Positions 12,076-47,116 of a stretch of DNA of 64,000 bases are shown piece after piece (position 1 is the stretch's first letter; the number at the start of each line of letters is the position of its first letter). A model generated the notes under the pieces. That model was not told the origin of the DNA. It ran no database searches and was given only the letters and a program-made list of their open reading frames with translations. The position numbers and the translations under genes are program-made. Source of the DNA: Halomonas sp. 54_146 (lineage in GTDB: Bacteria; Pseudomonadota; Gammaproteobacteria; Pseudomonadales; Halomonadaceae); NCBI RefSeq assembly GCF_001507855.1, contig NZ_LGEN01000007.1, forward strand, positions 1 to 64,000, written 5' to 3'.

Positions 12076-14115
12076 ATGATGGCGCGTTGGAAATCCCTAC
12101 CTCTACGGCTTCGTTTATTTCTCTCTTTTGGAACCGTCTTAGCGCTCGCCATGCTCTTGGCGCTTTACCTCCAAGCGCGCTCCCACGGCCAAGCGCAGCT
12201 GAACAACCTGCTCAATGAAGAGTTACCCGCACAAGTCGAAGGGCTAGCGGCGCATGTCAACCTTAGCCTAAGCCAAGATTTGGCCATCTCAGAAAGCCTT
12301 GCTAACAATTATTTTATTGAGCAATGGGTTCGCGACGGGCTGCCCGAAGAACAAAGAAACGGCATTGCCAGCTACCTTGCGCGCTTAATGACGCAGCTAG
12401 ACACCGAGCTGCTGTTTATCGCCACCCACTACCAGGGGCGCGGCTACTACTTTCAGCTACGTGACGGCGAATTTCTACAGCGCCCGCTGCAACCGTCAGG
12501 CAGTGAAGATGACTGGTACTACCGCTTTACTGACAGCGAAGACGCTTATGAACTGAATTTAGATACCGACACTTTCTCGCCAGATGAAGCCTTTGTATTT
12601 ATTAATTACCGTAGCGCCGCAACCGCCAACGGCCGCCCGCTCGTTGTCGCCGGGGCGGGGCTTGATCTCTCCCACATGGCTTCCTTAATTGACGACTTTC
12701 GCCTAGGCCAAATGGGGCGTGCTTCGCTGCTCAGCGCCGAAGGTGAGCTGCTCGTTCGCAGCGGTGAAACCGTTCACAGCACTGAAACCGTTCTTAGCAG
12801 AGAAACCACAGCGCAGACCCTGCCTGACCAAGCGCCGCAAGACCTGCTGGAAAATGAGCAGCTGCAGACACATGAAGTAAACCGCGACGGCCAAACGCTG
12901 CTAGTCAGTACGCTTTGGCTGCCCGAGTTACAGCGCTATTTAATGGTCGAAGTCGACAAAGAAGCGTATCTGACCTCAACCCGTGAGCGCTTTTTGGAAT
13001 CCAGCGGCCTAGGTTTACTCATTTTGCTCGTTGGGTTGCTAGTGCTCTACCCGCTGACCGGCAGCTTGATCCGCCCGCTGGTGCATTTTCAACGTCAGCT
13101 TAAAGACATTACCCATAGTTTAGATCTCTCGCGACGCGTCAGCACCGACGACAAAGCAGAGCTTGGCGACTTAGCCAATCAAACCAATGAGCTACTTGAG
13201 CGGCTTTCCCGCGCCATTGCCGCAGTGGGTAAGAATTCCCAAGCGCTGACCCACGTCGCCGACCGGCTGGCAAAAACGGCGGGGCTTTCCGGTGTGCACG
13301 GCAGCGACATTGACCACGAAGCAAGCCAAACCATGGCGGCGGCCGTTGAAGAAATGGCCTCTTCGGTGGCTGAAATCACCTCTACCATGGAAGAACTCTC
13401 CACCTCTTCTACCCAAATCGCTGACCACTCTCAATCAGTGGTCGATGTCGCCAATCAAACGCTGGAGCGCAGCCGCAAAGGCAGTACGGCGATGCAGCTT
13501 TTGCAGTCAAAAATGCAGGATATCCGCAGCGACAGCGAACAAAGCCTGGCAGAGATCATGACCCTGGGGGCAAAATCCAAACAGATCAACAAAGTCATGG
13601 AGCTGATCAACACCCTAGCCGCTCAAACCAAGCTGATCGCCTTTAATGCTGCTTTAGAAGCGTCAAGCGCCGGGGATGCTGGCCGACGTTTTTCCGTTGT
13701 TGCCAGCGAAATACGCCGCCTGGCTGACAGCGTGACCGACTCTACCCAAGAGATTGAAGAGCATACCGATGATATTCAAACGGCGATTAATCGCTTAGTG
13801 GTGGCCTCTGAAAAAGGTGCTTCTTCTATCGAGCAAGGCGTTGAAGTGAGTATTAACACCGCCCAGGATTTGGAAGCGCTGCTCAAAGCCGCCAGCCAAA
13901 CCAGCAGCGCCGCCCAGCAAATATCGCTGTCTACCCAGCAGCAAAAAACAGCCAGTAGCCAAGTGGTGATGGCGCTACGCGATATCGATACGGCCAGTTC
14001 ACGCAACGCGCACTCCGTGCGCAGTATTACTGACATCAGCCAAGATATGATTCATATGTCAGCCGAGCTGAACGCTTTGGTTCAGGAGTTCACCCTAACA
14101 AATAAAAACCGCTGA
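12076..14115 (+). CDS. Methyl-accepting chemotaxis protein (receptor of a Wsp-like pathway)
   Basis: A 679-residue transmembrane chemoreceptor. TM1 is at about residues 9-29, followed by a roughly 280-residue periplasmic ligand domain, probably dCache (the DDWYYRF and FVFINYRSAA segments are typical). TM2 is at about 309-328, a HAMP domain at 329-385, and the cytoplasmic signalling helices run from about 400 to the end. The hairpin tip reads LAAQTKLIAFNAALEAS, differing from the usual QTN-x-LALNAA-x-EA. There is no C-terminal NWETF-type tether for CheR/CheB. Directly followed by cheB, it heads the chemosensory operon and is the only receptor in it. Two adjacent ATGs (12076, 12079) follow GGAG. 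Confidence 0.93.
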   Translation: MMARWKSLPLRLRLFLSFGTVLALAMLLALYLQARSHGQAQLNNLLNEELPAQVEGLAAHVNLSLSQDLAISESLANNYFIEQWVRDGLPEEQRNGIASYLARLMTQLDTELLFIATHYQGRGYYFQLRDGEFLQRPLQPSGSEDDWYYRFTDSEDAYELNLDTDTFSPDEAFVFINYRSAATANGRPLVVAGAGLDLSHMASLIDDFRLGQMGRASLLSAEGELLVRSGETVHSTETVLSRETTAQTLPDQAPQDLLENEQLQTHEVNRDGQTLLVSTLWLPELQRYLMVEVDKEAYLTSTRERFLESSGLGLLILLVGLLVLYPLTGSLIRPLVHFQRQLKDITHSLDLSRRVSTDDKAELGDLANQTNELLERLSRAIAAVGKNSQALTHVADRLAKTAGLSGVHGSDIDHEASQTMAAAVEEMASSVAEITSTMEELSTSSTQIADHSQSVVDVANQTLERSRKGSTAMQLLQSKMQDIRSDSEQSLAEIMTLGAKSKQINKVMELINTLAAQTKLIAFNAALEASSAGDAGRRFSVVASEIRRLADSVTDSTQEIEEHTDDIQTAINRLVVASEKGASSIEQGVEVSINTAQDLEALLKAASQTSSAAQQISLSTQQQKTASSQVVMALRDIDTASSRNAHSVRSITDISQDMIHMSAELNALVQEFTLTNKNR

Positions 14116-14127
14116 TAAGGATGCCGA

Positions 14128-15225
14128 ATGAGTGGAATTCGGGTAGTAATCGCCGACGATAGCCAAGTAGCCCGTGACGTGCTGCGCGCCATCCTCAGCC
14201 AAGACGACGCTATTGAGATCGTCGGTGAAGCTACTAACGGCCGCGAGGCGGTGGAACTGGCCAAGCGCCTAGCACCGCAGCTGGTCACCATGGACCTCAA
14301 CATGCCGGTGATGGACGGCCTAAGCGCCATTGAAGAAATCATGTACACCAAAGGCGTACCGATTTTGGTGATCAGTGACCGCTCTGACGCACAAACCGCC
14401 TATCGAGCGCTGGAAGTGGGGGCGCTGGAAGTGATGCCAAAACCCTCGTTAGACACCGCAGACGCCGAATACTTGTTAGAGCGTGTTCGGCTGCTGGCAG
14501 GGGTGGCGGTAATTACTCGCCTGCGCCGGCGCACTAGCGTGCCAGCACCGCCTACCGCCGCTTCAACGCCACCTGCTTTACCGACACACTCGCTACAGCC
14601 GCTCTCTCTACCGCAAGCGGTGCCCCGCGACTTCCAACGCATTGTGGCCATTGCCTGTTCGACCGGCGGCCCCCAAGCCTTAGTGCACCTGTTGCGAATG
14701 CTGCCGCCCTCCTTTCCCGCGCCCATTGTGATCGCCCAGCATATCAGCCATGGGTTTATTAACGGCATGGCGCAATGGCTGGCATCGCTGTGTGCAATGC
14801 CGGTCAGCGTTGGCCAAGAAGGCGAGCACCTATGCCCAGGGCATATATATTTATCGCCTTCAGAAAGTAATTTATGCGTCACCCCACGCCACCGCTTTCA
14901 GCTGCACCCCAGCCCCGAGCGCGCTCTTTATCGCCCTAGCTGCGATGTACTGCTGCAAAGTGTCGCGGATGTTTACAGTGCCGATGCCATTGGCGTTATT
15001 TTGACCGGCATGGGGCGCGATGGCGTTAATGGTATGCGTGCCATTTATCAAGCAGGTGGCACCACGCTCGCTCAGGATGAAGCCAGTTCTGTTATCTATG
15101 GCATGAACCAAGAGGCCGTCAACGCCGGTGTTATTCAACACGTGTTGCCACTCAACGACCTGCCCGAGCGATTACTGCGCGACGTTTATGTCAGCGCCTA
15201 TTCAAGGCCGGAGCCATTAACATGA
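14128..15225 (+). CDS. cheB: Chemotaxis protein-glutamate methylesterase CheB (WspF-like)
   Basis: A 365-residue CheB: N-terminal receiver (residues 1-125, phospho-acceptor D56 in VTMDLNMPVMDG), a proline-rich linker of about 40 residues, and the C-terminal methylesterase. The catalytic triad region is visible: Ser in IACSTGGPQAL, His in IAQHISHGF, and Asp in ILTGMGRDGVNGM. It demethylates and deamidates receptor glutamates, resetting the pathway. The start follows AAGGATG; the stop overlaps the cheR start by 4 bp (ATGA). By domain content it corresponds to WspF. Confidence 0.95.
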   Translation: MSGIRVVIADDSQVARDVLRAILSQDDAIEIVGEATNGREAVELAKRLAPQLVTMDLNMPVMDGLSAIEEIMYTKGVPILVISDRSDAQTAYRALEVGALEVMPKPSLDTADAEYLLERVRLLAGVAVITRLRRRTSVPAPPTAASTPPALPTHSLQPLSLPQAVPRDFQRIVAIACSTGGPQALVHLLRMLPPSFPAPIVIAQHISHGFINGMAQWLASLCAMPVSVGQEGEHLCPGHIYLSPSESNLCVTPRHRFQLHPSPERALYRPSCDVLLQSVADVYSADAIGVILTGMGRDGVNGMRAIYQAGGTTLAQDEASSVIYGMNQEAVNAGVIQHVLPLNDLPERLLRDVYVSAYSRPEPLT

Positions 15226-16706
15226 GTGCGCTCACGGCCTTTAAAAACCTGGTGCATCAGCGCTGTGGTTTACACCTGGAAGGCCTGGCAGAAGCACGAT
15301 TAGACCGCGCCGTGGCCTCCCTACAAGCCACCACCAGGCTAACAGACACCACGCAGCTACTCACGCACTTAACCAGCGACCCGGCGCTGTTTGACCACTT
15401 TGTCAGCCAGCTGACCGTCAATGAAACCTATTTTTACCGCGAACCGGACGCCCTGAACTGGCTGGTCAACACTTACCTGCCCGAACGCTTAGCGGCGGGG
15501 GCGGCAGCGCTGTCTATTTTTAGTGCCGGCTGCTCTTCCGGCGAAGAGCCCTACAGCGTGGCCATGCTGCTGGCTGAACGCTTTGGCGAACATGCCAAAG
15601 CGCTATTTACTATCGCCGGCGGCGACGTAGACCAGCAAATACTCGCTAAAGCGCGCCAAGGGCTTTACAGCGGCATGGCCTTTCGCGCCTTACCGCCCAC
15701 CCTTAAAGAGCGCTACTTTAGCCCTGATGGGCAGTATTTTAAGGTCAATGAGTCACTGCGCCAGTGGGTCAGCTTTCGCACGTTGAACTTACTCGATACC
15801 GATGAAAGCAGCGTGGGCGGCCCTTTTGATGTCATTCTCTTTCGCAATGTGTCGATCTACTTTGATGAGCAAACACGCCGACGTATACAGCAGACGCTTC
15901 GCCAGTTACTCGCCCCGAACGGCATCTTGCTATGTGGCATTACCGAAACCCTAGGCAATGACCTAGGCGTTTTTGAGTTAGTACACGCGCAAGAGATTTT
16001 TTACTTTCAACCTCGCGAGCAAGCAACAGAGCGCGCTGACGATCAACCGCCCCCTCCTCTAGCGGCCTTGGCCACTGGCAGCGATGCTGAGAGCGATATT
16101 AAGAACGATATTAAAAACGATAAACATGTGGCCAGCTTCACTGCCCGAACTGGCGTACCGCCGGCCACGCTGGCTGAAAAGCAGTCAGAAAAGCAGGTTG
16201 AAGAACAGCCAGAAGAACAGCTTGAAGAACAGCCAGAGCGCGCCACAGCAGAAGGCTTTAGCCAACAGCTACTCAACGCCCACCAATTGCTCAACCAAAA
16301 TGCCTTTGCCGATGCCGCCGCGCTGTTACACAGCCTGCTAGAGCAGCGGCCTTGGTCCATTGATGCGCTGGTGCTGGCGGGCTTGGTCGCCCGTTGGCAG
16401 CAACAGCCGCAGCTTGCTTACGACTACTTCAAACGAGCCATTTACACAGCGCCGGAATGCTGGCCTGCGCACTTTTATTTAGCGGAGCTATATCGCCAGG
16501 GCGAATTAGCCGACGAGCCCGCACAGCGCCAACGTGGCTATGCCGCTGTGGTGCGTTTATTGGCTGCCGCGCCAACGGCAAGCGGCGGGCTAGACACCAT
16601 TGAGCCACCGCTACCGCCGGGCGATGCCCGTTTTCTTGCCGAACGTTACCTGGCGGCCGTCAATACTATGCCGGTGTCGCCCAGTACCACACAGGGAGTG
16701 GGTTAA
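15222..16706 (+). CDS. cheR: CheR methyltransferase with C-terminal TPR region (WspC-like)
   Basis: A 494-residue protein: CheR N-terminal helical domain (1-75), SAM-dependent methyltransferase (about 80-265; VNETYFYREP, FSAGCSSGEEPYS and DVILFRNVSIYFD), a low-complexity acidic linker (about 285-340 with DIKNDIKND and repeated EEQ/PEEQ units), and two or three TPR-like helices (about 345-440). The tethered TPR domain is characteristic of WspC-type CheR proteins acting on receptors that lack a pentapeptide tether, which fits the neighbouring receptor. The linker has grown by tandem duplication of 9-12 bp units. Translationally coupled to cheB. Confidence 0.93.
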   Translation: MSALTAFKNLVHQRCGLHLEGLAEARLDRAVASLQATTRLTDTTQLLTHLTSDPALFDHFVSQLTVNETYFYREPDALNWLVNTYLPERLAAGAAALSIFSAGCSSGEEPYSVAMLLAERFGEHAKALFTIAGGDVDQQILAKARQGLYSGMAFRALPPTLKERYFSPDGQYFKVNESLRQWVSFRTLNLLDTDESSVGGPFDVILFRNVSIYFDEQTRRRIQQTLRQLLAPNGILLCGITETLGNDLGVFELVHAQEIFYFQPREQATERADDQPPPPLAALATGSDAESDIKNDIKNDKHVASFTARTGVPPATLAEKQSEKQVEEQPEEQLEEQPERATAEGFSQQLLNAHQLLNQNAFADAAALLHSLLEQRPWSIDALVLAGLVARWQQQPQLAYDYFKRAIYTAPECWPAHFYLAELYRQGELADEPAQRQRGYAAVVRLLAAAPTASGGLDTIEPPLPPGDARFLAERYLAAVNTMPVSPSTTQGVG

Positions 16707-16707
16707 T

Positions 16708-18837
16708 ATGGCGCTGGATATTCGCCGATTTATTGAGCGCTTTGTGGAAGAAGCCGCTGACCACCTTCCCCGTCTGCGCGCGGGCATTAGCGCCTTGGAG
16801 CAGGGGCGCGCCGATGGTGAACAGATCAATGAGTTATTTCGCGCCGCCCATACGTTGAAAGGCTCATCACGAATGCTCAAGCTGGTGCCGATTACGGCCC
16901 TGGCGCACAGTACCGAAGAGCTGTTAAGTGCGCTACGCGAAGAAACGCTAAGTGCAACGCCAGACATTACCAGCCTGCTCAGCCAAGCCGTTGATGGGCT
17001 GGAAGACTTAGTAAGGCGGCTGGCAGAAGGCGAGCCGCCCGAGGCATTACCCGAAGCCGATGCAGCGCTGTGCAGCGGGTTAGAAAACGCCGCTAGTGGC
17101 CAAGCGCCCGTACAGTCGGCTTTATCAGCGGCAGATGTATCAGCAGCAGTTTCATCGACGACATCTTCGGCAACACTGCCCGCCACTACCGACAGCGAAC
17201 TGCGCCTTAGCGACACCGTGCGCGTTCGGTTAGACCGCCTGGATGATGTTATCCGCCTGATGGGCGAAGTGCTTTCCGGCCACCACCATTTACATAGCTT
17301 AGCGAGCCAGGCCAGAGCGCTGGGCGCTACGCTTCCCGTTGAGCAACAGGCTCCTTTTAATGCCTTTAGCCGTGAGCTAAAAGATAGCATTCTGGCTCAC
17401 GAATCACTGATGGGCGACCTGCATGACCGCGCCCTGCAGATGCGTATGCTGCCGCTCAGCGTGGTATTTGAGCCGCTTGCGCACATGTCCCGTGAACTGG
17501 CTCAGTCGCTTGGCAAACAGGTCGACTGCCGCGTGCGGGGCAGCGAGATTGAGCTGGATCGCCAGATGATTGACCGCCTGTCAGACCCGCTGATTCACCT
17601 ACTGCGCAATGCCCTGGACCACGGCCTGGAACTGCCCGCAGAGCGCCAGGCAGCCGGCAAATCGCCCCGTGGGCAATTAGTGATTGAAGCGTGGCAGGAC
17701 GCCGGCTGGGTGATGGTAGAAATGCGCGACGACGGAGCAGGCATTTGCCTGAAAAACGTGCGCAAGAAAGCCCTCGCCAAACAGCTGCTTACCGAGGAGC
17801 AGCTAAATGCACTCAGCGAACAAGAAACGCTTGAACTGATTTTTCTACCCGGCTTTTCCACCAAAAGCATGATTACCGACTTTTCTGGGCGCGGTGTGGG
17901 CATGGATGTCGTCAAACGCACGGTGGTGGATGAACTCAACGGCGACCTGCAGCTCGCCAGTGAGCTTGGCAGCGGCTCACGCTTTACCCTGCGCCTGCCA
18001 CTTTCGCTGGCCATGATGCGGGTGCTGCTGGTGAGCGTTGGCGGGGTCAACCTAGCCGTCACCGCGCCCTATGTGTCGGAGCTTGTGGAATGCTCAGCCG
18101 AATCGTTTATTGATGCCGCCGGCCAGCGCACGCTTATTTTACGCAATGAATTTGTGCCCGTGGCATCGCTTGCTCAGCTGCTTGAACTGCCCAGCGCCGA
18201 ACCATTCAAAGAGCCACGCAAGGAGCCTACCCTGCTGCTGGTTGTCCACCTGCGCCAACAGAAACTGGCCTTAATCATTGATACGCTGATTGATGAACGC
18301 GACATGGTGATCAAACCGCTGCCCGGGCATTTACGCCACTTACCGCTGGTGTCTGGCATGGTGTCGATGGGGCGCAATACGCTCGTTAGCCTGCTGCATG
18401 TGCCTGCCTTGCTGGAGTTAACACAGCGTAAAACGCAGCGGCCGGCGGGCGAACAGGCATCTGCCACCGCTAGGCCACGCATCCTGGTGGTCGATGATTC
18501 ACTGAATACCCGCGAAATAGAAAAAGACGTACTCGAAGCCTGGGGCTACCACGTCACCCTGGCTGAAAACGGCCGCGACGGTTTAGCCAAAGCGTTAGCA
18601 GAGCCGTTTGATGCGGTACTTACCGACGTTGAGATGCCGGTAATGGACGGTTTTGCGCTGACTGCCCAACTGCGCGAAAATGAGCTTTACCGTTACCGGC
18701 CGATTATTATCATCACCTCGCGGGAAAAAGAGGCGGATCGCCGACGCGGTATTGAGGTCGGTGCCGACGCTTATATCGTCAAGGGCAGTTTTGATCAAAA
18801 TAATTTAGTCGCGACGCTGCAAGCCCTGCTGGGCTAA
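16708..18837 (+). CDS. cheA: Hybrid chemotaxis histidine kinase CheA-REC (WspE-like)
   Basis: A 709-residue CheA. Hpt/P1 has the phosphorylated His48 in FRAAHTLKGSS. A short variable linker follows (about 130-200), then the dimerisation helices (about 205-290) and the HATPase domain: N-box HLLRNALDHGLELP, G1 MRDDGAG, G2 GRGVGMDVV. The CheW-like regulatory domain is at about 430-565 and the C-terminal receiver at about 585-705 with Asp in VLTDVEMPVMDG. No obvious CheY-binding P2 domain is present. The ATG at 16708, two bases after the cheR stop, is preceded by GGAGTGG; an out-of-frame-looking extension from 16600 would overlap cheR and lacks family sequence. Kinase of the pathway, equivalent in layout to WspE. 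Confidence 0.95.
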   Translation: MALDIRRFIERFVEEAADHLPRLRAGISALEQGRADGEQINELFRAAHTLKGSSRMLKLVPITALAHSTEELLSALREETLSATPDITSLLSQAVDGLEDLVRRLAEGEPPEALPEADAALCSGLENAASGQAPVQSALSAADVSAAVSSTTSSATLPATTDSELRLSDTVRVRLDRLDDVIRLMGEVLSGHHHLHSLASQARALGATLPVEQQAPFNAFSRELKDSILAHESLMGDLHDRALQMRMLPLSVVFEPLAHMSRELAQSLGKQVDCRVRGSEIELDRQMIDRLSDPLIHLLRNALDHGLELPAERQAAGKSPRGQLVIEAWQDAGWVMVEMRDDGAGICLKNVRKKALAKQLLTEEQLNALSEQETLELIFLPGFSTKSMITDFSGRGVGMDVVKRTVVDELNGDLQLASELGSGSRFTLRLPLSLAMMRVLLVSVGGVNLAVTAPYVSELVECSAESFIDAAGQRTLILRNEFVPVASLAQLLELPSAEPFKEPRKEPTLLLVVHLRQQKLALIIDTLIDERDMVIKPLPGHLRHLPLVSGMVSMGRNTLVSLLHVPALLELTQRKTQRPAGEQASATARPRILVVDDSLNTREIEKDVLEAWGYHVTLAENGRDGLAKALAEPFDAVLTDVEMPVMDGFALTAQLRENELYRYRPIIIITSREKEADRRRGIEVGADAYIVKGSFDQNNLVATLQALLG

Positions 18838-18877
18838 GCGCAAGCACCCATGAATCATCATTACCACGAGGTTAGAC

Positions 18878-19246
18878 ATGCATATCCTGGTCGTAGACGA
18901 CGATCCACTGGCAGGGGAAATGACCGCCGCACTGCTTGAATCACAAGGTCATCACACCTTGCTGGCCAATGATGCGATGGAAGCCGTTGATCGGCTAGAC
19001 ACTCACAGCGATATCGGCCTGATTGTGAGCGATATGCATATGCCCCTGATCAGTGGATTAGCGCTGTTGGATATGCTGCGCGAGCAAGGCAATGATCTGC
19101 CGTTTATTTTACTTACTGGCGATATTCCCGATGCAGCACTTCGCCAACGGCCAGGTTTGGATGCCTGCTTAAGCAAAGATGCAGAATTAATGTCGACACT
19201 AGAACAAGCCGTTAACCAAGCGCTTAACCAGCGTGGAAGACAGTAA
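18878..19246 (+). CDS. Stand-alone response regulator receiver (CheY-like)
   Basis: A 122-residue single-domain receiver with all core residues: DDD at 7-9, phospho-acceptor D52 (SDMHMPLISG), T85 in ILLTGD and K105 in CLSKD. No output domain. A GAGG ribosome binding site lies six bases upstream. Wsp operons lack such a protein, so it is an additional phosphate acceptor or shuttle between CheA-REC and the Hpt-containing cyclase. It could also be a sink, or contact another target; sequence alone does not decide. Confidence 0.88.
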   Translation: MHILVVDDDPLAGEMTAALLESQGHHTLLANDAMEAVDRLDTHSDIGLIVSDMHMPLISGLALLDMLREQGNDLPFILLTGDIPDAALRQRPGLDACLSKDAELMSTLEQAVNQALNQRGRQ

Positions 19247-19252
19247 TTGCAT

Positions 19253-19315
19253 GGTTAGTTATAGTTATGGCTCTGGCTGTAGTAGTTCTGGTTATAGTTC
19301 TGGCTATGGTTAGGG
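19253..19315. repeat. Imperfect tandem repeat before the diguanylate cyclase gene
   Basis: Repeated units of the type TTATAGTT and CTGGCTATGG or CTGGCTGTAG (period about 18 with slippage) fill the 124-base gap between the receiver and the cyclase genes. No hairpin with a T-run is present, so it is not a terminator. Confidence 0.6.
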
Positions 19316-19370
19316 AAAAAATAGCCAATGATATGGATCGCCGCTTCCGATCACTTACTCAGGTAGTTTG

Positions 19371-21050
19371 ATGTCAAAGCCCGCCCCCTCGCTGCACAAT
19401 AAGCTAAATCAGCTGCGTGAGCGCTTTATAGAGCAGCTTCCTTCCCGCTTAGCGAAAGCAGCCGAGCAGTGGCAGCAAAGCCGCCTGTCTGCCGATGAGC
19501 ACTCACGGCTAGCGCCAGAGCTGCACCGCTTCTTTCACAGCTTGAAAGGAACCGGGCGTTCGCTAGGCTTTGAACGACTCGCCCTGCTCGCAGATCAAGC
19601 AGAAGACGCCCTTACCACGGCTCCCGCTCGCGCCGATCTTGATGCTTATATTCAGCACCTGTTACGCCAGCTGCACCGCGAACAGCAGCATCTGAGTTCC
19701 CACCATGGCCAAAAGCAAGCGCTGGCGGCCATGAACAGCTTTGAGTTTACCCACCACGCTGAGCCAGTGCGTAATAAGCGCCAGCGGCTGGTTTACCTGT
19801 GTGACGATGAGCCTGAACAAGTCGATCAACTGATCCATCACTTGCGCTGCTTTGGCCATGAAGTAGTGCATTTTATCGACACCGAGACGTTCTTTAATGC
19901 GGCGCTCGCCCGTCGCCCTGACGCGGTGATCATGGATGTGCAGTTCCCCCAGGGTCAGACCGCCGGGACAGAAACCCTGGCCAACTTGAACAAACTAACC
20001 AACCAACCCCTGCCTGCTATCGTGCTGTCAGCCCACCGCGATTTCCACTCGCGCCTAAGCGCCGTTCGCGCGGGCAGCGGCGGCTACTTTACCAAACCGG
20101 TGAAGCCACTGGACTTAATGCTGGCGGTAGATGAACTCACCGCGCCCATTTCCGAAGAGCCGCTGCGGGTGCTGGTAGTGGACGATGAGCCGGAAGCGGC
20201 GGCTTACCACGCCCTGCTGCTTGAACAAGCCGGTATGACTACCCAGCAGGTTCATCACCCTGCTGATGCACTCACCGCACTGGAACGTTTTAGCCCCGAT
20301 TTACTGCTGGTAGATATGTATATGCCGGTGTGTTCTGGCAAGGAGCTTGCGACCATTATTCGTCAACAGCCGGAATACATAGGGCTACCGATTATCTATC
20401 TTTCCAGTGAAACCGACAGCCAAAAGCAGATGTCTGCCATGGCCGCCGGCGTTGAAGCTTTTCTGACCAAACCGGTAAAGCCAGATGAGCTCGTCTCTGC
20501 TGTTCAACTGCGTGCCGAGCGCCTGCGCTTACTGCGCTCGTTAATGACCCGCGACAGCATGACGGGCCTTTATAACCACAGCACCACCACCGAGCTCATC
20601 AGTAAAACCCTCGCCCAGGCTCACCGCGAAAATAGCCAGCACGCCATGGCGATGATCGATATCGATAACTTCAAACAGGTGAACGACACTTACGGCCACC
20701 TAGCGGGTGACCAAGTGATTATCACCTTGGCGAGGCTACTAAAGAGCCGCCTGCGGCTCTCTGATATTATTGGCCGCTACGGCGGTGAAGAGTTTGTGGT
20801 GCTGCTAAAAGGCGTGAGCGCCGAGAAAGCCGCCACATTAATCGACAGCTTGCGCGAGGATTTTGCCCTGGTCGATTTTCACGCCGGTGACGTGCACTTT
20901 CGCTGCACCTTTAGCGCAGGCATCAGCAGCTTCCCCGAGCAATTCTCCACCGAGTCGCTGCGCTTAAGCGCCGACCAAGCGCTCTACCGTGCCAAAAGCC
21001 AAGGGCGCAATCAGGTAGTGATATCGACGGAGCGCGCCGATGCCCCCTGA
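19371..21050 (+). CDS. Diguanylate cyclase with Hpt-REC-REC-GGDEF layout (WspR counterpart)
   Basis: A 559-residue protein. Hpt domain at about 1-110 with His56 in FHSLKGTG; REC1 at about 140-255 with a lone Asp in VIMDVQFPQG; REC2 at about 262-380 (VVDDEP, LLVDMYMPVCSG, TKP). The GGDEF domain at about 390-555 has an intact GGEEF active site and an RLSD inhibitory-site motif five residues before it. It should make c-di-GMP from two GTP and be product-inhibited. It is the likely output of the upstream CheA. ATG 19371 is preferred over the TTG directly before it. Unlike WspR it adds an Hpt and a second receiver, implying a longer phosphorelay. Its stop overlaps the next cheW start by 11 bases. 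Confidence 0.92.
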   Translation: MSKPAPSLHNKLNQLRERFIEQLPSRLAKAAEQWQQSRLSADEHSRLAPELHRFFHSLKGTGRSLGFERLALLADQAEDALTTAPARADLDAYIQHLLRQLHREQQHLSSHHGQKQALAAMNSFEFTHHAEPVRNKRQRLVYLCDDEPEQVDQLIHHLRCFGHEVVHFIDTETFFNAALARRPDAVIMDVQFPQGQTAGTETLANLNKLTNQPLPAIVLSAHRDFHSRLSAVRAGSGGYFTKPVKPLDLMLAVDELTAPISEEPLRVLVVDDEPEAAAYHALLLEQAGMTTQQVHHPADALTALERFSPDLLLVDMYMPVCSGKELATIIRQQPEYIGLPIIYLSSETDSQKQMSAMAAGVEAFLTKPVKPDELVSAVQLRAERLRLLRSLMTRDSMTGLYNHSTTTELISKTLAQAHRENSQHAMAMIDIDNFKQVNDTYGHLAGDQVIITLARLLKSRLRLSDIIGRYGGEEFVVLLKGVSAEKAATLIDSLREDFALVDFHAGDVHFRCTFSAGISSFPEQFSTESLRLSADQALYRAKSQGRNQVVISTERADAP

Positions 21051-21603
21051 AACGCCAGATCAACGCCAAACGCCAGACCAACAGCAGAAGCTGCAGACAT
21101 TAGATGAAGCATTCGCAAGCCACAGCGATGCTGATGAGGCCGTGGTGGATGTTGAAGAGCCGACCCAGCAGCTGGTGATTTTTCGCAGTGGCGGCCAGCG
21201 TTTTGCGCTACCCGGCAGTGCCGTGAATGAAATTTTACCCAGCGACCAGCCTGTTTATTACGTACCGGGGCTGCCCACCTCCACCGAGGGCGTACTGCAC
21301 CTACGTGGCAGGGTTGAGTCAGTGATTAGCCTGCATCAGCTGCTTAATTTGCCGCCACCTGACGGTGAGCCTTGCGGCGTGATACTGCTGGTCAGCGCCG
21401 CGGGTATGCGCAGCGGTGTCCGCATCGAACAGCTTGACGATGTTTGCGAGGTTCCCCAAAGCGCGCTGCAATCTCCTCCTGAAACCATGCCCACTGCGCT
21501 ACGGCCTTATGTCAGCGCACTGTGGCAAGTCGATGAGCAACATGCATTAGCCCTGCTAGACCCTGAAGCGCTGTTCAGCGCCTACCAAGAAGGCTTAGGC
21601 TAA
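21040..21603 (+). CDS. cheW: CheW-domain adaptor protein
   Basis: A 187-residue protein: about 40 residues of Gln/Asp-rich N-terminal extension (with PDQRQTPDQQQ, a small duplication) and then a CheW domain (about 45-185) with LVIFRSGGQRFALP at its start, LHLRGRVESVISLHQLL in the middle and LALLDPEALF at the end. It couples the receptor to CheA. The start lies inside the cyclase gene (11-base overlap). One of two CheW-like products, like WspB and WspD. Confidence 0.88.
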   Translation: MPPETPDQRQTPDQQQKLQTLDEAFASHSDADEAVVDVEEPTQQLVIFRSGGQRFALPGSAVNEILPSDQPVYYVPGLPTSTEGVLHLRGRVESVISLHQLLNLPPPDGEPCGVILLVSAAGMRSGVRIEQLDDVCEVPQSALQSPPETMPTALRPYVSALWQVDEQHALALLDPEALFSAYQEGLG

Positions 21604-21604
21604 C

Positions 21605-22030
21605 GTGGCCGACCCACGCCATAGCAGCGAACAACCAACGCAAGCTCGCGTTGCGCTGGTGCTGTTTCAGGTCGCTGATTACCGTGTTGCCCTTGAAGCA
21701 CGCCATGTGCTTTCGATGACCGACCACCCCAACACCCCGCGCACCTCGGCTGCTCAAGCGCTGCTTTATGAAGCTCCACTTTGTGAAACCCCGACTAGCC
21801 CCCCCTCGACACCGCCTACGTCATGGCTAACCTTACGCGACGCACAAGGCCAGTGGCAGCTGGGCGTGAACGGCGAAATAACGCTGCAGCAGCTTCCCGC
21901 TACTTCCCTTTACCCATTGCCTGCACTGCTAGCAGCTCGCCGTTTTTCACCCGCGCTATGCGGCTTCGCCTTCGACCAGAAGCAGCTGGTGCTGCTGCTG
22001 GATGCGCGCAAGCTTGCGCCGATTTGCTAG
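21605..22030 (+). CDS. Divergent CheW-like protein
   Basis: A 141-residue protein with a reduced CheW-like fold: LVLFQVADYRVALEARHVLS at the start and LCGFAFDQKQLVLLLDARKLAP at the end. The middle is shortened and proline/serine/threonine-rich. It starts with GTG two bases after the preceding stop and closes the operon. Likely second scaffold component (WspD position), but sequence similarity to CheW is weak in the centre, so binding to CheA is inferred from context. Confidence 0.65.
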   Translation: MADPRHSSEQPTQARVALVLFQVADYRVALEARHVLSMTDHPNTPRTSAAQALLYEAPLCETPTSPPSTPPTSWLTLRDAQGQWQLGVNGEITLQQLPATSLYPLPALLAARRFSPALCGFAFDQKQLVLLLDARKLAPIC

Positions 22031-22091: not shown

Positions 22092-23321
22092 CTAGCGACC
22101 TAGCCATAAACAGCTAATAGTATCGCCTTGGGCAATTTCGCTATTGGGCGGAATCACCGCAAAGGCATCGGCGCTTATGCACGACGAAAGCACACCAGAA
22201 TTTTGGTCATCAAAGGCCATCGCCGTCACCCCGCTGGGCGTAAACTGCAGCGTCACGCGCATATAGTGCTCGCGCGGGCCGGTGGAAGTCGTAAACCCAG
22301 CGTTGGCCGCCACCGTTGGCAGCGTGTTTAGCGCCGGGCAGCCAAGCATTTCGCCCATCAACGGGCGCAGAAAAAGCCAGGCACCCACAAAACTAGACAC
22401 CGGGTTCCCCGGAAGCCCGACAAACCGTGCTTGACTATCATCACCGCGAGGCAAGCGGCCAAGCGCTAACGGCTTACCGGGGCGAATCGCAAGCTTCCAC
22501 ATATCCAGCTGGCCGATCGCTTCTAGCGCGGTTTTCACGTGGTCCTCTTCGCCAACGCTTACGCCGCCGGTGCTAACCACTACGTCGGCTTCTGCAGCCG
22601 CTTGGGTTAGCAGCGCCACGGTTTGGGCGTAGTCATCAGGCACGCTGACAGTGCTGATCACCTCGGCACCAAAGTTTTCTAACAGCCGCTTAAGCATGGG
22701 TCGGTTGGAGTTATAAAGCTGGCCCGGTTTTAGCGGTGTGCCGGGGTCAATAATCTCATCGCCGGTAGACAGTAGCGCCACCCGAGGCCGACGGCGCACG
22801 CTAACCTGGGTAATCCCCTGGCCTGCCAAGTGGCCTAGCGCGGCGGCCTCAAGCCGCTCACCGGCATTGAGCAGCACACTGCCCTGGCGAACGTCGCGCC
22901 CCTGGCGGCGGACATTATCACCCGCGGGAATATCGGCGGGTATCAACACCTGCGCGCCTTCAACCTCCACGCGCTCTTGCATAACGACGCAGTCAGCGCC
23001 GGCTGGAATCTCGCCGCCGGTAAAAATGCGCGCACAGCTGCCTGGTGCCAGCGCGTTCGCCTGCGTGCCCGCCGCAATGCGTTGGCTCACTGGCAGCCAC
23101 TGCCCGGCATCGGCGGCGCGCAGCGCATAGCCATCCATCGCGCTGTTATCAAACGGCGGCACATCCAGCTGGGCGGTCACTGTTTCGGCCAGCACGCGCC
23201 CTGCTGCCGCTTGCAGCGCTACTGTCTCTGAACCGATGGGCTGAACACCGGCTAACAGCGCTTCCAGCGCGGCTGAAATCGGCTGTAGCTTAGTCATCGA
23301 CCCAGTCATAAATTCAGCCAT
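22092..23321 (-). CDS. moeA: Molybdopterin molybdenumtransferase MoeA (first copy)
   Basis: A 409-residue MoeA that inserts molybdate into adenylylated molybdopterin. Landmarks: FDNSAMDGYALRAAD (about 55-70), RIFTGGEIPAGADCVVMQE, the LLSTGDEI motif, STGGVSVGEEDHVK and GLPGNPVSSFVGA. The C-terminal part (GPREHYMRVTL) differs from that of E. coli MoeA. The start at 23321 overlaps the moaB stop by 8 bp (ATGGCTGA), and GAGGT precedes it; a 50-residue upstream extension inside moaB is not family-like. A second, more E. coli-like MoeA is at 34721. Confidence 0.92.
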   Translation of the reverse strand: MAEFMTGSMTKLQPISAALEALLAGVQPIGSETVALQAAAGRVLAETVTAQLDVPPFDNSAMDGYALRAADAGQWLPVSQRIAAGTQANALAPGSCARIFTGGEIPAGADCVVMQERVEVEGAQVLIPADIPAGDNVRRQGRDVRQGSVLLNAGERLEAAALGHLAGQGITQVSVRRRPRVALLSTGDEIIDPGTPLKPGQLYNSNRPMLKRLLENFGAEVISTVSVPDDYAQTVALLTQAAAEADVVVSTGGVSVGEEDHVKTALEAIGQLDMWKLAIRPGKPLALGRLPRGDDSQARFVGLPGNPVSSFVGAWLFLRPLMGEMLGCPALNTLPTVAANAGFTTSTGPREHYMRVTLQFTPSGVTAMAFDDQNSGVLSSCISADAFAVIPPNSEIAQGDTISCLWLGR

Positions 23322-23832
23322 GTTGACCTCGGCCTGGAATGACCAGATTAGCGAAGTTACAGGGTTTATGGCGGCTATCGAGCTGTTCGGCAAGAATGCC
23401 GTCCCACCCTGTGCGGCAGGCACCGGTAGAGCCTGGCAAACAGAACACCACCGTGGCGTTGGCAAACCCACCCAGGCTGCGGCTTTGAATGGTCGAACTG
23501 CCGATCTCGTCGCCGCTTAGCTGGCGAAAGCGCTCGCCAAACCCTTCGATGCGCTTATCCAGCAGCACCGAAATAGCCTCGGGGGTAGAGTCGCGGCCGG
23601 TAAAACCCGTGCCGCCGGTGGTTAGCACCACCTGAACACCGGGGTCGGCAATCCACTGAGCGACCACCGCGCGGATTTGGTACACGTCGTCCTGCACGAT
23701 ACGTTTTTCCGCCAGCCGGTGGCCTGCCTCGGTTAGCCGTTGCACCAGCGTTTGGCCGGAGCGGTCAGTGTCTTCTGTGCGAGTGTCCGAGATGGTTAAC
23801 ACCGCGATGTTGAGCGCTTGCATTGGTTCCAT
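23314..23832 (-). CDS. moaB: Molybdenum cofactor biosynthesis protein MoaB
   Basis: A 172-residue MoaB/MogA-fold protein; the closing QLDSRHKPCNF segment and length point to MoaB rather than MogA. It contains the TTGGTGFTGRDSTPEA motif (molybdopterin binding) and PGSTGACRTGWD. The ATG at 23832 is preceded by AAGGAG seven bases away. An in-frame Arg/Pro/Lys-rich extension back to 23907 lies in the end of the previous gene and is not credible. Role: adenylylation step of cofactor synthesis, or tungsten use, by family. Tightly coupled to moeA downstream. Confidence 0.9.
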   Translation of the reverse strand: MEPMQALNIAVLTISDTRTEDTDRSGQTLVQRLTEAGHRLAEKRIVQDDVYQIRAVVAQWIADPGVQVVLTTGGTGFTGRDSTPEAISVLLDKRIEGFGERFRQLSGDEIGSSTIQSRSLGGFANATVVFCLPGSTGACRTGWDGILAEQLDSRHKPCNFANLVIPGRGQHG

Positions 23833-23836
23833 GACA

Positions 23837-24199
23837 TTACTCCTTATTTTCGGCCTTGTTCTCGGCCTTATTTTTGGCCTTGGCCTTTTGCTGGGCTTGA
23901 CGGGCATTCAGCGCGGACAGCTGCGCAGGCGTTGCCTCGCCCTGATAGTGCGCTTTCCACTCGCTGTAGGGCATACCGTAGACATACTCGCGGGCGGCCT
24001 CCATCTCAAGCGGTGTGCCCTGCTGCTCGGCCGCCGTTACCAGCCACTTTGAGAGGCAGTTGCGGCAAAAATCGGCCAGGATCATCAGGTCGATATTTTG
24101 CACGTCTTTGTTGTCGTCCAGATGCTTCAGCAGCCGGCGAAACGCCGCCGCTTCAAGCTCGGTACGGGTGGTGGCATCCAGCTCGTCAAATGTTGCCAT
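23837..24199 (-). CDS. DUF1244 domain protein
   Basis: A 120-residue DUF1244 protein. The first 95 residues are the family domain (FRRLLKHLDDNKDVQNIDLM, then ILADFCRNCLSKW with a Cys pair, and YGMPYSEWKAHYQ). The last 25 are a low-complexity Lys/Ala/Glu/Asn tail created by repeated AAG/GCC/GAA-type codons (AENKAENKE at the end). Function unknown. It is first in a unit with moaB and moeA; its stop is four bases from the moaB start. Whether it has a role in molybdenum metabolism is not known. Confidence 0.85.
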   Translation of the reverse strand: MATFDELDATTRTELEAAAFRRLLKHLDDNKDVQNIDLMILADFCRNCLSKWLVTAAEQQGTPLEMEAAREYVYGMPYSEWKAHYQGEATPAQLSALNARQAQQKAKAKNKAENKAENKE

Positions 24200-24238
24200 G
24201 TTGATTCCTCTTTAAAAACGGGTTTGGGAAAGCATAAC

Positions 24239-24264
24239 AAAAGACACCGCCCGAGGGCGGTGTC
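24239..24264 (-). terminator. Rho-independent terminator of the formate dehydrogenase operon
   Basis: A 9-bp GC-rich stem (GACACCGCC with GGCGGTGTC) and 4-base loop lies downstream of the cytochrome b subunit gene. On the minus strand it is followed by UUUUGUU (A run at 24239-24242 of the plus strand). Confidence 0.85.
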
Positions 24265-24302
24265 AAAAGGGGGTCGCACGTATCAATTAACGCACGTATT
24301 AA

Positions 24303-25400
24303 TCAACTGGGCTTCGCCGCCGAGGGCTCACCGCTGCCACCCGCTTTACGCGCTGCCAGCTCTTCTTCGCTGATCGCCTGGTCTTTGACTTCTTCGTACC
24401 ACAGGTTGTGGTGCTCTTTGGCCCAGGTTTCATCCACGTAGCCGGTGGTCATGGCCTCAAGCGAACCTTCGGTTCCCACCGTACCAATATAGATATGGCC
24501 CAGCGCCACGGCGGTTAACCCAAGCGCACCTACCGCATGGATAATATTGGCCCATTGCATGGTGTCGCGGCTTTGGCCGTAGTTGGGGAAGTCGAGTACA
24601 AAGCCGCTGGCAATAACCACAATGCCTGCGGTGGCCAACAGCCAGTACCAGGCTTTTTCGCCGCCGTTAGCAAAACCTGCATCGGGGTGGCCTTTGCCCA
24701 CTAGCCCGCCCCCCTTTTTGAACCACTGCAGGTCGTGCTTTTTGGGAATATTGTCTTTGATCAAACTGATCAGCAGTATCACCAGCAGAACGCCAAAGAT
24801 CGGCCCCAAATAGTTATGCAGCACTTTGGAAGCCGAGATCATCCAGCCCCACACCGCATCACCAAACAAGCCGCGGAAGACAAACTTACCAAACAGCAGG
24901 TTGAGACCGGTCAGAGCAAGGGTGATAAACAGCGTCGCTACTGTCCAGTGCAAGGAGCGGATCAATAGCGACCAACGGAACAGCTTGCGACCGGTGCGCG
25001 GCTCCCCTAATTTCTTGCGGCCGATAATCAGGTAGAACAGGGTGATAATAGCCACCATGCCGAATACAGCAATTAAGCCAAACGGCGATACCCAGCGGTT
25101 ACGGATCTGCCGCCAGGTTTCACCGCTTGAATTAATCAAGTTGTAGTTACTGTCAGCACGTGAATCACGGTAGTTAGGCCCCGTCTCGCCGCTGCGCACC
25201 TGACGCCACTGGTCGGCGGTAATGCCGGGCGCTGCGGTGGTCATTTCGCGGTCAGGGTCAGCCTGAGCCACCGCCACGTGGGTGAAGCCGAGGCTAAGCA
25301 CCAGCACCAGCGCTACTAACATAAAACGCCAAATGCCCAGGGCGAGCCCTCTGCCTGAGTGCGGCACCCTACCGGGTGCCTGTACTGTCAACAGGTTCAT
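24303..25400 (-). CDS. Formate dehydrogenase cytochrome b (gamma) subunit
   Basis: A 365-residue membrane cytochrome b subunit that accepts electrons from the Fe-S subunit and reduces quinone. An N-terminal hydrophobic segment (about residues 25-45, ending AVAQA, possibly a signal peptide) is followed by a soluble stretch and one TM (about 101-121). The four-helix cytochrome b561-type domain starts with LFRWSLLIRSLHWTVATLF; His in LHW and later YLG, HAVGALGLTAVALGHIY are the haem-ligand regions. The ATG at 25400 follows AGGAGG; a GTG at 25415 overlaps the upstream stop but lacks this site. Last gene of the fdh operon. Confidence 0.9.
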   Translation of the reverse strand: MNLLTVQAPGRVPHSGRGLALGIWRFMLVALVLVLSLGFTHVAVAQADPDREMTTAAPGITADQWRQVRSGETGPNYRDSRADSNYNLINSSGETWRQIRNRWVSPFGLIAVFGMVAIITLFYLIIGRKKLGEPRTGRKLFRWSLLIRSLHWTVATLFITLALTGLNLLFGKFVFRGLFGDAVWGWMISASKVLHNYLGPIFGVLLVILLISLIKDNIPKKHDLQWFKKGGGLVGKGHPDAGFANGGEKAWYWLLATAGIVVIASGFVLDFPNYGQSRDTMQWANIIHAVGALGLTAVALGHIYIGTVGTEGSLEAMTTGYVDETWAKEHHNLWYEEVKDQAISEEELAARKAGGSGEPSAAKPS

Positions 25401-25411
25401 GACACGCCTCC

Positions 25412-26026
25412 TCACCCTTTATGGGCAGCATCATAGGCTAGGTTGTCGGCACTGGCCTGAGGGTTATTGGACCAACCACCATCTTTGTGCCCGCGATGAA
25501 CAACGCGCTGGCGGAAGATGTCGGCTACGTCTTGGGCATCACCCGCCAGCAACGCTTTGGTGGAACACATTTCGGCACACAGCGGCAGCTTGCCTTCGGC
25601 AATACGGTTGGAGCCGTACTTCTGGTACTCCTCTTCTTTGCTTTCGGCAGGGCCGCCGGCGCAGAAGGTGCATTTATCCATCTTGCCGCGCTCGCCAAAG
25701 GCATCCTGCTGGGGAAACTGCGGAGCGCCAAACGGGCAGGCGTAGAGGCAATAGCCGCAGCCAATGCACAGGTCTTTGTCGTGTAGAACAATGCCGTCAT
25801 CGGTTTTGTAGAAGCAGTCGGTGGGACACACCGCCATGCAGGGCGCATCGTCACAGTGCATACAAGCGACGGAAATAGACATTTCATTCGCTTCGCCGTC
25901 GTTGAGCGTGACAACGCGGCGGCGCTGGATGCCCCACTCAACATCGTTGGCGTTTTTACAGGCGGTGACGCAGCCGTTGCATTCAATGCAGCGTTCGGCG
26001 TCACACATAAATTTCATTTGAGCCAT
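25412..26026 (-). CDS. Formate dehydrogenase iron-sulfur (beta) subunit
   Basis: A 204-residue ferredoxin-type subunit with four [4Fe-4S] motifs: CIECNGCVTAC (about 15-25), CMHCDDAPCMAVCP (about 55-68), CIGCGYCLYACPFG (about 88-101), and a split fourth site with CTFC near 114 and CAEMC near 146. It carries electrons from the catalytic subunit to cytochrome b. It has no Tat signal of its own and no C-terminal membrane helix; it is probably exported with the alpha subunit. A stem-loop separates it from the alpha-subunit gene. Confidence 0.92.
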   Translation of the reverse strand: MAQMKFMCDAERCIECNGCVTACKNANDVEWGIQRRRVVTLNDGEANEMSISVACMHCDDAPCMAVCPTDCFYKTDDGIVLHDKDLCIGCGYCLYACPFGAPQFPQQDAFGERGKMDKCTFCAGGPAESKEEEYQKYGSNRIAEGKLPLCAEMCSTKALLAGDAQDVADIFRQRVVHRGHKDGGWSNNPQASADNLAYDAAHKG

Positions 26027-26042
26027 GGTGTTCTCCTCATGC

Positions 26043-26066
26043 CGGTGCGGGATGGCTCCCGCACCG
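26043..26066 (-). promoter_or_regulatory. Intergenic stem-loop between alpha and beta subunit genes
   Basis: CGGTGCGGG and CCCGCACCG form a perfect 9-bp stem around a 6-base loop in the 76-base gap. No T-run follows on either strand. A structure in this place can act as partial attenuator or as an RNA processing/stability element for the upstream alpha-subunit message; the role here is inferred from position. Confidence 0.55.
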
Positions 26067-26102
26067 TCGTGCTGTCAGGTCGGTCGCGACGTCTCTCTAA
26101 AC

Positions 26103-28955: not shown

Positions 28956-28979
28956 GGCAAATCTCCTGGCATTCCGCCG

Positions 28980-29180
28980 TCAATCACGCAATGAGGCGTA
29001 ATAAGCACGGATGTGGTCAGTCTCACGGTAGTTAACCGTTTGTTTTTCGTCTTTTACCGGGGGGGTATCCGCCTGAGCCAGGGTGACATGGCCTACTGCT
29101 GCCACGGCGCCAGCAGCGGCGGTTCCCAGCCCTACGGTTTTCATAAACCGGCGGCGCTCAGGATTATGTGATTTGTGCAT
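28980..29180 (-). CDS. Small twin-arginine protein of formate dehydrogenase operons
   Basis: A 66-residue protein of the type annotated as formate dehydrogenase region Tat target. ERRRFMKTVGLGTAAAGA is a Tat signal (RRR at about residues 9-11) and the hydrophobic segment runs to AVGHVTLAQA. Only about 30 residues remain after it, closing with YRETDHIRAYYASLRD. Position directly before the catalytic subunit is conserved in this operon type. It may be a small stabilising subunit or co-exported partner, but the role is unknown. The ATG at 29180 follows AGAGGAGG; an in-frame start six codons earlier has no such site. Confidence 0.85.
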   Translation of the reverse strand: MHKSHNPERRRFMKTVGLGTAAAGAVAAVGHVTLAQADTPPVKDEKQTVNYRETDHIRAYYASLRD

Positions 29181-29270
29181 GAGATCCTCCTCTAGCATGC
29201 TTTTATGCAGGGTCTTTTATGCCGTTTCTTATACTGTTTTACTTTTTACTGATTTTTTATTGAGCCTTCA

Positions 29271-29885
29271 TTAAAGCTCGACAATACGCACTGGCGTTTG
29301 GCCCGCATCAATGCTTAAGCGAGCCTGTTCACTCTCCATAAAAGCGCCACCCAACTGCCCCAGCGCTGCATAGAAAGCGGTGTCTACTTGCCCCAGGTCG
29401 GCAAAACAGCTGGCCGCCCAGGGGGCTAAATGCTGGCTGAAGAAATAGGCTTGCTCTTGGCTTGCGGATTCAATGAGCATTGCCATCACTTCACACAGCG
29501 CAGCAAGGTGGTCTTCGGGGTCACGGGTATGCTCACTGCGCTCAAAGCCAAGAACGCGCAAGTCCTGGCGCAGCGCGACCAGCGCGGCCTCCATTAATTC
29601 GCCGTTGCGGTACCAAGAGGCATAAGGCACCACCTCGCCTTGAATCACGCCGACCAAATGGCGAAAGTGAGCACTCTGCAGCCGCCCGTGTTCAGCATCA
29701 GCGGCGGCGGCCGCCAACGCCTGCCAGCATTCTGCTAGGCGGCTGCCGTCTTGCTCAATGGCTAGCTCAGCTAACCAATTGAGCAGCTCTGCATCCGGCG
29801 CTTGGCGCAACAGCGTGGCAAGCAGCTGGTAGATATCGGCGCGTAGCGCATCCGCTTCTTTAAGCGTGGGCAGTGCATCCGTCAT
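29271..29885 (-). CDS. TorD/DmsD-family maturation chaperone
   Basis: A 204-residue all-helical chaperone of the TorD family. It starts with the family pattern LRADIYQLLATLLRQAPDAELLNWL (given here as two parts, residues 14-25 and 26-38). Further marks are VVPYASWYRNGELM (about 104-117) and RDPEDHLAALCEVMAML, including the E-x(0-1)-D-H motif. It probably binds the Tat signal of the catalytic subunit until the molybdenum cofactor is inserted. Stop and start are close to the 4Fe-4S protein gene upstream (4 bases), and a 90-base gap separates it from the small Tat gene. Confidence 0.88.
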   Translation of the reverse strand: MTDALPTLKEADALRADIYQLLATLLRQAPDAELLNWLAELAIEQDGSRLAECWQALAAAAADAEHGRLQSAHFRHLVGVIQGEVVPYASWYRNGELMEAALVALRQDLRVLGFERSEHTRDPEDHLAALCEVMAMLIESASQEQAYFFSQHLAPWAASCFADLGQVDTAFYAALGQLGGAFMESEQARLSIDAGQTPVRIVEL

Positions 29886-29889
29886 CGGC

Positions 29890-38083: not shown

Positions 38084-38109
38084 TGGCTTACACGTGTGGC
38101 TTACACGTG
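38084..38109. repeat. Tandem 13-bp repeat at the end of the PAS-GGDEF-EAL gene
   Basis: TGGCTTACACGTG is repeated directly. The second copy includes the TAA stop of the minus-strand gene (TTA at 38101-38103), so the repeat lies in the 18-base gap between two convergent genes and partly inside one. Confidence 0.75.

Positions 38110-44777: not shown

Positions 44778-47116
<2,339 letters not shown>

Follow-up and report, generated by a model that had tools for sequence, protein, structure and literature searches.

The closest described counterpart of the locus considered here is chemosensory cluster 2 of Halomonas (Vreelandella) titanicae KHS3, in which the genes follow the order MCP (methyl-accepting chemotaxis protein), CheB2, CheR2, CheA2, CheY2, a diguanylate cyclase, CheW2 and CheW3 (Gasperotti et al. 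2018, PMC5907407). In that cluster, the cyclase carries an Hpt domain and two receiver (REC) domains, CheW3 was called aberrant, and the receptor was assigned to the 40H length class. The cluster, which its authors compared with the Wsp system, was reported from Gamma-, Beta- and Alphaproteobacteria, and in modified form from Deltaproteobacteria, and no characterised example of the Hpt-REC-REC-GGDEF architecture was known to them. Other systems of relevance are Wsp of Pseudomonas (WspA-F and WspR), for which wspA-wspF synteny serves as the criterion (PMC8552884), PleD-type cyclases with tandem receivers before the GGDEF domain, and the receiver-only intermediaries Spo0F, MrrA, SdrG and Sma0114 (PMC9981736). 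Here, we analyze an operon of eight genes found in a 64,000-nucleotide stretch (the window) of the genome of Halomonas sp. 54_146 (assembly GCF_001507855.1, contig NZ_LGEN01000007.1, positions 1 to 64,000), which would link a CheA-based array to cyclic di-GMP (c-di-GMP) and whose output half resembles, in domains and gene order, a relay cassette present elsewhere beside ordinary histidine kinases.

Judged by gene order and protein similarity, the operon is already known, being an ortholog of cluster 2 of strain KHS3 (PMC5907407). Its eight proteins show 64.7-88.5% identity to those of V. titanicae BH1 (L172), encoded in the same gene order, and the cyclase has all of its phospho-sites. The eight genes, their order, the Hpt-REC-REC-GGDEF cyclase, the free CheY2, the receiver of CheA, the TPR region of CheR and CheW3 are all shared with the KHS3 cluster, no difference in layout was found, and the window comes from another genome of the same genus. 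Since an orthologous system has already been published, the operon by itself contributes just one more genome. The new point is the resemblance of its output half to the cassette of ordinary kinases. In the consulted parts of PMC5907407, ordinary-kinase versions of the receiver-cyclase pair are not mentioned, and no cassette of a HisKA kinase, a free receiver and an Hpt-REC-REC-GGDEF cyclase was found described in the open-licence literature, as judged by titles and the beginnings of abstracts.

An earlier, preliminary description of the operon had proposed a search for the Hpt-REC-REC-GGDEF layout next to cheA in other genomes. When named genomes were scanned with the Hpt-REC-REC part of the cyclase as the query, 71 loci were obtained, of which 58 were kept and 13 dropped (L190, at a contig end; L203 and L204, with genes broken into several frames; L207-L216, weak matches with other receivers). 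In all 58 kept loci, cheA lies beside the cyclase gene and a free receiver gene directly precedes the latter; for L163, L175, L177 and L193, the script had scored no free receiver because of overlapping, over-extended open reading frames (ORFs), but the listing shows one, and some kept loci (e.g., L146, L153, L179, L191, and L202) are cut short or frame-broken. This layout is beyond chance. By record, the kept loci belong to Gammaproteobacteria and other taxa, i.e., Vreelandella/Halomonas, Marinospirillum, Nitrincola, Denitrificimonas, Methylobacter, Methylovulum, Sulfuricella, Rhodoferax, Comamonas, Burkholderiaceae, Solidesulfovibrio, and unclassified Gammaproteobacteria. Within a class sample of 369 genomes, a CheA of the operon type (E <= 1e-120) was present in three, two of which were the own genome of the window and a congener, and a match to the cyclase (E <= 1e-80) in 45. 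A single-sequence query of viral contigs gave no pattern match to close relatives. In a quick unrooted tree of an Hpt-REC-REC-GGDEF sample, which contained no Wsp protein, the che-linked cyclases (29 of 86 rows) formed one clade with a Shimodaira-Hasegawa-like approximate likelihood ratio test (SH-aLRT) support of 100.

Two further congener loci were examined as possible natural losses of the Hpt and the free receiver. L070 (8081-11447) is a decayed copy without a free receiver, in which a deletion starts within the CheA receiver and ends in REC1 of the cyclase; L071 (4437-5858) encodes a cyclase without a recognisable Hpt, and no cheA was found in the 17 kb covered. Both seem to be products of decay and were left out of the analysis.

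Cyclases of this layout were also found away from che genes. The 58 non-che neighbourhoods (18 distant and 40 stronger cyclase matches, themselves a subset) were reduced to 57 by removal of L129 (contig end), and these represent stronger matches and not a random draw. Domains were called in the large table by hidden Markov models (HMMs) built from sequences collected here, and a Pfam check on ten proteins confirmed the HisKA, HATPase, PAS, GAF and CHASE domains, the free receivers and the Hpt-REC-REC-GGDEF architecture. A HisKA-type kinase gene adjoins the cyclase gene in 28 of the 57 loci (upstream in 23 and downstream in five). The nearest linked kinase has two or more receivers in 17 of these 28 cases, while in 11 none was found, three of the latter having a receiver-bearing kinase one gene beyond. 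Immediately before the cyclase, a free receiver was found in 26/28 kinase-linked loci, compared with 4/29 without a kinase (Fisher p 7e-10, uncorrected for relatedness). Two small controls were used: in the own genome, one of 30 further GGDEF ORFs has a free receiver as its neighbor (Fisher 1.4e-6 against 30/57; only two of these 30 carry a receiver, one of them being the exception), and among REC-GGDEF genes, for which 1.5 kb was covered on each side, this holds for two of 15 (one belonging to the own genome; Fisher 0.008 against 30/57).

Seven loci (L037, L051, L107, L109, L119, L136, and L145) contain a free receiver, and none of the kinases encoded on the same strand within 6 kb was seen to carry a receiver of its own (checked by Pfam for L107 and by our own HMMs for the other six). 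In these loci, a free receiver must feed the Hpt, if the latter is fed from within the cluster; L037 contains a second free receiver, and a REC-GGDEF protein lies nearby in L119. Taken together, the free receiver and the Hpt-REC-REC-GGDEF cyclase look like an output cassette which elsewhere is found with HisKA kinases and whose kinase slot is here occupied by the CheA array. From the distribution, with the tree unrooted, it appears likelier that CheA replaced a HisKA kinase. We tentatively propose that an array was plugged, essentially once, into a pre-existing relay cassette which in other Gammaproteobacteria would be driven by HisKA kinases, that CheA and HisKA kinases are interchangeable inputs to one c-di-GMP output module, and that the CheY of this operon is a dedicated Asp shuttle, not an allosteric regulator.

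The candidate phosphorylation sites (Table 1) were compared within 60 che-linked sets (the window, L056, and the 58 kept loci), many of which come from one genus. His56, Asp189 and Asp315 of the cyclase, Asp52 of the free receiver and Asp640 of CheA are present in all 60 sets, and His48 of CheA in all 58 in which the region is available. In the kinase-linked non-che cyclases, the Hpt His is kept in 28/28, the REC1 Asp in 25/28 and the REC2 Asp in 26/28, while the corresponding values for cyclases without a kinase are 20/29, 22/29 and 29/29; the non-che free receivers retain the Asp in 29 of 30 cases (Glu in L117). Hence, conserved phosphorylatable His and Asp residues for a His-Asp-His-Asp relay were found in the kinase, the receivers and the Hpt. 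From these values, REC2, which adjoins the GGDEF domain, is the likely output receiver. The Hpt His was lost only where neither a kinase nor a free receiver was present (9/29 cyclases without a kinase, and 0/88 with one). In one clade of unlinked cyclases (L036, L038, L040-L043, L048, and L052), the Hpt His is replaced by Q, E, D or L, while the REC2 Asp is kept; these are probably cyclases freed from the relay.

The free receiver lacks the aromatic switch residue, which would fit a passive shuttle. At the aromatic switch position (K-3), Cys was found in 60/60 che-linked rows with this column, and Val or Leu in 28/29 non-che rows (26 of the 30 non-che free receivers are kinase-linked), against Phe in 78/79 REC2, Tyr or Phe in 77/79 REC1, and Tyr in 61/61 CheA receivers. 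An intermediary receiver without an allosteric response was described in PMC9981736, where the position is variable within the family and Sma0114 lacks the aromatic residue on beta-5, as does the free receiver of the window. Like Spo0F, MrrA, SdrG and Sma0114, the latter is a stand-alone receiver with a proposed place between a kinase and an Hpt. The FATGUY motif is partial in the che-linked free receivers, which have TG followed by Asp and not by an aromatic residue, and reads TAK in the non-che ones. In the receiver tree, the approximately unbiased (AU) test allowed both the grouping of che-linked free receivers with the other free receivers (p 0.587) and with the CheA receivers (p 0.809). 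If receivers that may not be related fill the same position, this would speak for a functional cause more than for common ancestry.

From the genes, domains, residues, their conservation, gene order and homologs, we infer a scheme in which the signal would pass from the CheA array through the free receiver, as a shuttle, to the Hpt and REC2 of the cyclase; we favor this reading with limited confidence. The receptor would bind a purine outside the cell and thereby control the autophosphorylation of CheA on His48. The phosphoryl group would then be passed to Asp52 of the free receiver, acting as a passive shuttle, from there to His56 of the cyclase Hpt, and finally to Asp315 of REC2, by which the cyclase would be switched on. 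REC1 may be a second acceptor or an adaptor, the CheA receiver may accept phosphate in parallel, either tuning CheA or serving as a drain, adaptation of the receptor would be the task of CheR and CheB, and the output of the array would be c-di-GMP, not flagellar switching. A multi-step relay, as suggested in the preliminary description, is supported as the likely mode by the retention of the proposed phospho-sites in the 60 che-linked sets. Its serial version, leading from His48 through the CheA receiver Asp to Asp52 and His56, is not supported, as it contains an Asp-to-Asp step. His-Asp relays alternate His and Asp, and we know of no chemistry for phosphotransfer from Asp to Asp. The CheA receiver and the free receiver would be alternative acceptors. 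If the same cassette is indeed fed both by CheA arrays and by ordinary kinases, one input would have been exchanged for another in nature on a c-di-GMP relay, with the predictions that the CheY of the operon is a shuttle and that this CheA does not activate a cyclase deprived of its Hpt. The scheme also provides a proposed order of phosphotransfer for Hpt-REC-REC-GGDEF proteins, an architecture without a characterised example known to the authors of the 2018 study (PMC5907407).

It should be stressed that several observations weigh against this scheme. In the che locus L056, the free receiver lies 2.4 kb from the cyclase. Of the 57 non-che cyclases, 25 have neither a kinase nor a free receiver nearby, and the association of the free receiver with the kinase was not significant in a paired tree test (four starred pairs, median p 0.5). 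The nine losses of the Hpt His reduce to two events in the tree (the eight-row clade and L131). In the 17 of 28 loci in which the linked kinases carry receivers, a kinase receiver could feed the Hpt. The aromatic residue is also missing in 5/6 CheB receivers and in 16/17 second receivers of linked kinases, so its absence from the free receiver fits a shuttle and does not prove one. Moreover, the residue after the Lys is mostly Asp in the che-linked free receivers and Pro in the others, and a shared descent of the che-linked and the other free receivers, considered as a candidate explanation, was not shown, as the AU test allows either grouping. Another rejected candidate is a rule by which retention of the Hpt His would depend on a linked kinase; it is unproven, because the paired test was not significant and two events cannot reach 0.05.

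The conserved receiver of CheA suggests another route to the Hpt. If this C-terminal domain fed the Hpt in the fashion of hybrid kinases, the free receiver would be a phosphate sink or would serve another target. Such a reading, which we consider not very likely, agrees with the invariance of Asp640 and of the active-site residues of the CheA receiver (60/60) and with the linked HisKA kinases, 17/28 of which bear two or more receivers, the second ones mostly without the aromatic switch. It is harder to reconcile with the kinases in which no receiver was found (L107 by Pfam and six by HMM), which are also paired with a free receiver and an Hpt-cyclase, with the Tyr switch that the CheA receiver keeps (61/61) in contrast to the free receiver, and with the presence of the free receiver in 58/58 kept scan loci, though it is missing from the decayed copy L070. 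Alternatively, CheA might phosphorylate REC1 or REC2 directly, as WspE is taken to act on WspR, which would leave the Hpt and the free receiver as a side branch (for reverse flow or as a sink). The REC2 Asp is kept in 29/29 cyclases without a linked kinase, including the nine without the Hpt His, and therefore REC2 can presumably be served without an Hpt; nevertheless, direct transfer appears improbable, in view of the Hpt His and the free receiver Asp, both invariant in the 60 che-linked sets, and of the gene pair itself, which has been retained in Gamma- as well as Betaproteobacteria and also in one locus of Solidesulfovibrio.

It is hardly credible that the operon is a genuine Wsp family member to which parts were added. 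All types of Wsp components were found (MCP, CheB, CheR-TPR, CheA with a C-terminal receiver, two CheW-like proteins, and a cyclase, with the TPR match weak and the second CheW recognized by a profile match), the c-di-GMP output is common to both, and PMC5907407 also states a likeness to Wsp. This bears out the component-by-component similarity, combined with a different gene order, that was noted in the preliminary description. However, the wspA-wspF synteny required by PMC8552884 was not found in the window, the second CheW is divergent, and the cyclase has an Hpt and two receivers in place of the REC-GGDEF layout of WspR. The che-linked cyclases, moreover, form one clade (SH-aLRT 100) in the tree, built without Wsp proteins. 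Since the synteny and the WspR layout are both absent, we call the operon Wsp-like in function and not a Wsp member. The free receiver, the Hpt and the second receiver, which had been regarded as additions to Wsp, are indeed present, but they are no simple embellishment, because the pair of free receiver and cyclase also stands beside ordinary histidine kinases. As for PleD, its NCBIfam model is the best match of the window cyclase (200.6 bits, below the cut-off of 474), and the tandem receivers before GGDEF are shared; unlike PleD, the window cyclase has an added Hpt, and the Asp is kept in both receivers.

The sensor region of the receptor matched PDB 9b9s (E 1.8e-138), with which 9b9x and 9ba3 are grouped, and the purine receptor McpH (PDB 8bmv; E 3.7e-18). 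A stretch of the 9b9s-group chain is 99.5% identical to the receptor of V. titanicae BH1 and 81.9% identical to that of the window; from these values, we take the three entries to be the receptor of the titanicae pathway, and we infer their tie to the paper of Ramos Ricciuti et al. (FEBS J 2025, doi 10.1111/febs.17320), cited in PMC12843749 for the binding of purine derivatives by this receptor. According to PMC12843749, hypoxanthine promotes biofilm of the titanicae strain. The dCache_1PU purine motif comprises Y121, R129, W140, F167 and D169 of McpH, and its variants in Table 2 of PMC11245519 include YRWFN, found in R1, R5, R8 and R15, all four of which bound purines. After alignment to McpH, the window receptor has Y124, R136, W147, F175 and N177, i.e., YRWFN, where the BH1 receptor has YRWYN; the comparison covered the identity of the five residues. 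The ligand is probably an extracellular purine.

The motif YRW[FY]N was present in 28 of 50 aligned operon receptors (the window and 49 of the 58 scan loci, the others being without a full-length receptor in the place searched). In the receptors of Methylobacter (two), Rhodoferax, Burkholderiaceae, Comamonas and Solidesulfovibrio, the sensor shows 9-13% identity and the signalling domain 64-69%; therefore, the operon core is constant and the input would vary. Different sensors (14-19% identity) with a conserved body (74-78%) were also seen in the operons of Vreelandella massiliensis, Marinospirillum perlucidum, Denitrificimonas caeni, and Nitrincola lacisaponensis (L154, L159, L173, and L206). 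Within the window, positions 42636-48535 hold two genes, one of the nucleobase permease family and one encoding a dihydropyrimidine-dehydrogenase-type Fe-S domain, about 20 kb or more from the purine-motif operon, possibly by coincidence.

Table 1. Genes of the chemosensory operon in the window
Feature	Position	Strand	Domains and evidence
Chemoreceptor (MCP), 679 aa	12076..14115	+	Pfam MCPsignal 2e-28; dCache-type sensor, HAMP, signalling domain
CheB methylesterase with receiver domain	14128..15225	+	Pfam CheB 3.6e-59 plus REC
CheR methyltransferase with C-terminal TPR-like region	15222..16706	+	Pfam CheR 2.4e-48
CheA hybrid kinase, 709 aa	16708..18837	+	Pfam Hpt/H-kinase_dim/HATPase/CheW/REC; P1 His48, P3-P5, C-terminal REC Asp640
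Free receiver, 122 aa	18878..19246	+	Pfam REC 4.8e-17; Asp52; Cys at the aromatic switch position
Diguanylate cyclase Hpt(His56)-REC1(Asp189)-REC2(Asp315)-GGEEF, 559 aa	19371..21050	+	Pfam Hpt 5.6e-9, two RECs, GGDEF 6.7e-43
CheW coupling protein	21040..21603	+	Pfam CheW 1.1e-27
Divergent CheW-like protein (CheW3 of the published cluster)	21605..22030	+	Profile match to the operon CheW; position as CheW3 in PMC5907407

The eight genes of the operon span positions 12076-22030, and the largest intergenic gap (124 bases) lies 5' of the cyclase gene. Pfam upheld the domain reading of the eight components given in the preliminary description, the last CheW-like protein being recognized by a profile match, and the residue numbers His48, Asp52 and His56 given there were right. 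The receptor has two hydrophobic segments (judged by eye), and its Pfam matches to dCache_1 and HAMP are below the cut-off. CheB exceeds the cut-off of NCBIfam NF001965 (338.8 bits against 293), while the TPR matches of CheR are weak (Pfam E 0.01-0.07). In CheA, no P2 domain was matched by Pfam, and its true start is at 16708, the TTG ORF from 16600 being over-extended. The residues of the cyclase are numbered from the ATG at 19371, taken as the true start, and its GGEEF motif is accompanied by an RxxD I-site. For the last ORF there was no Pfam match; its profile (18 homologs) aligned with that of the operon CheW (12 homologs) in hhalign with a probability of 85.9% and an E of 5.2e-06.

On its 5' side, the operon is flanked by DUF1190 and glutathionylspermidine-synthase-like genes, and its 3' neighbor is moeA on the opposite strand, which belongs to a downstream region (22092-31659) with genes for a molybdopterin oxidoreductase and a 4Fe-4S protein. 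The own genome encodes a second CheA, without a receiver, inside a canonical-looking che cluster, and another two-component c-di-GMP set (L255, C69:135500-145739) composed of a histidine kinase, a free receiver, a REC-GGDEF protein and a histidine kinase. The second c-di-GMP gene of the window (38101-40833, - strand) encodes a dCache/PAS-GGDEF-EAL protein, with a dCache match below the cut-off.

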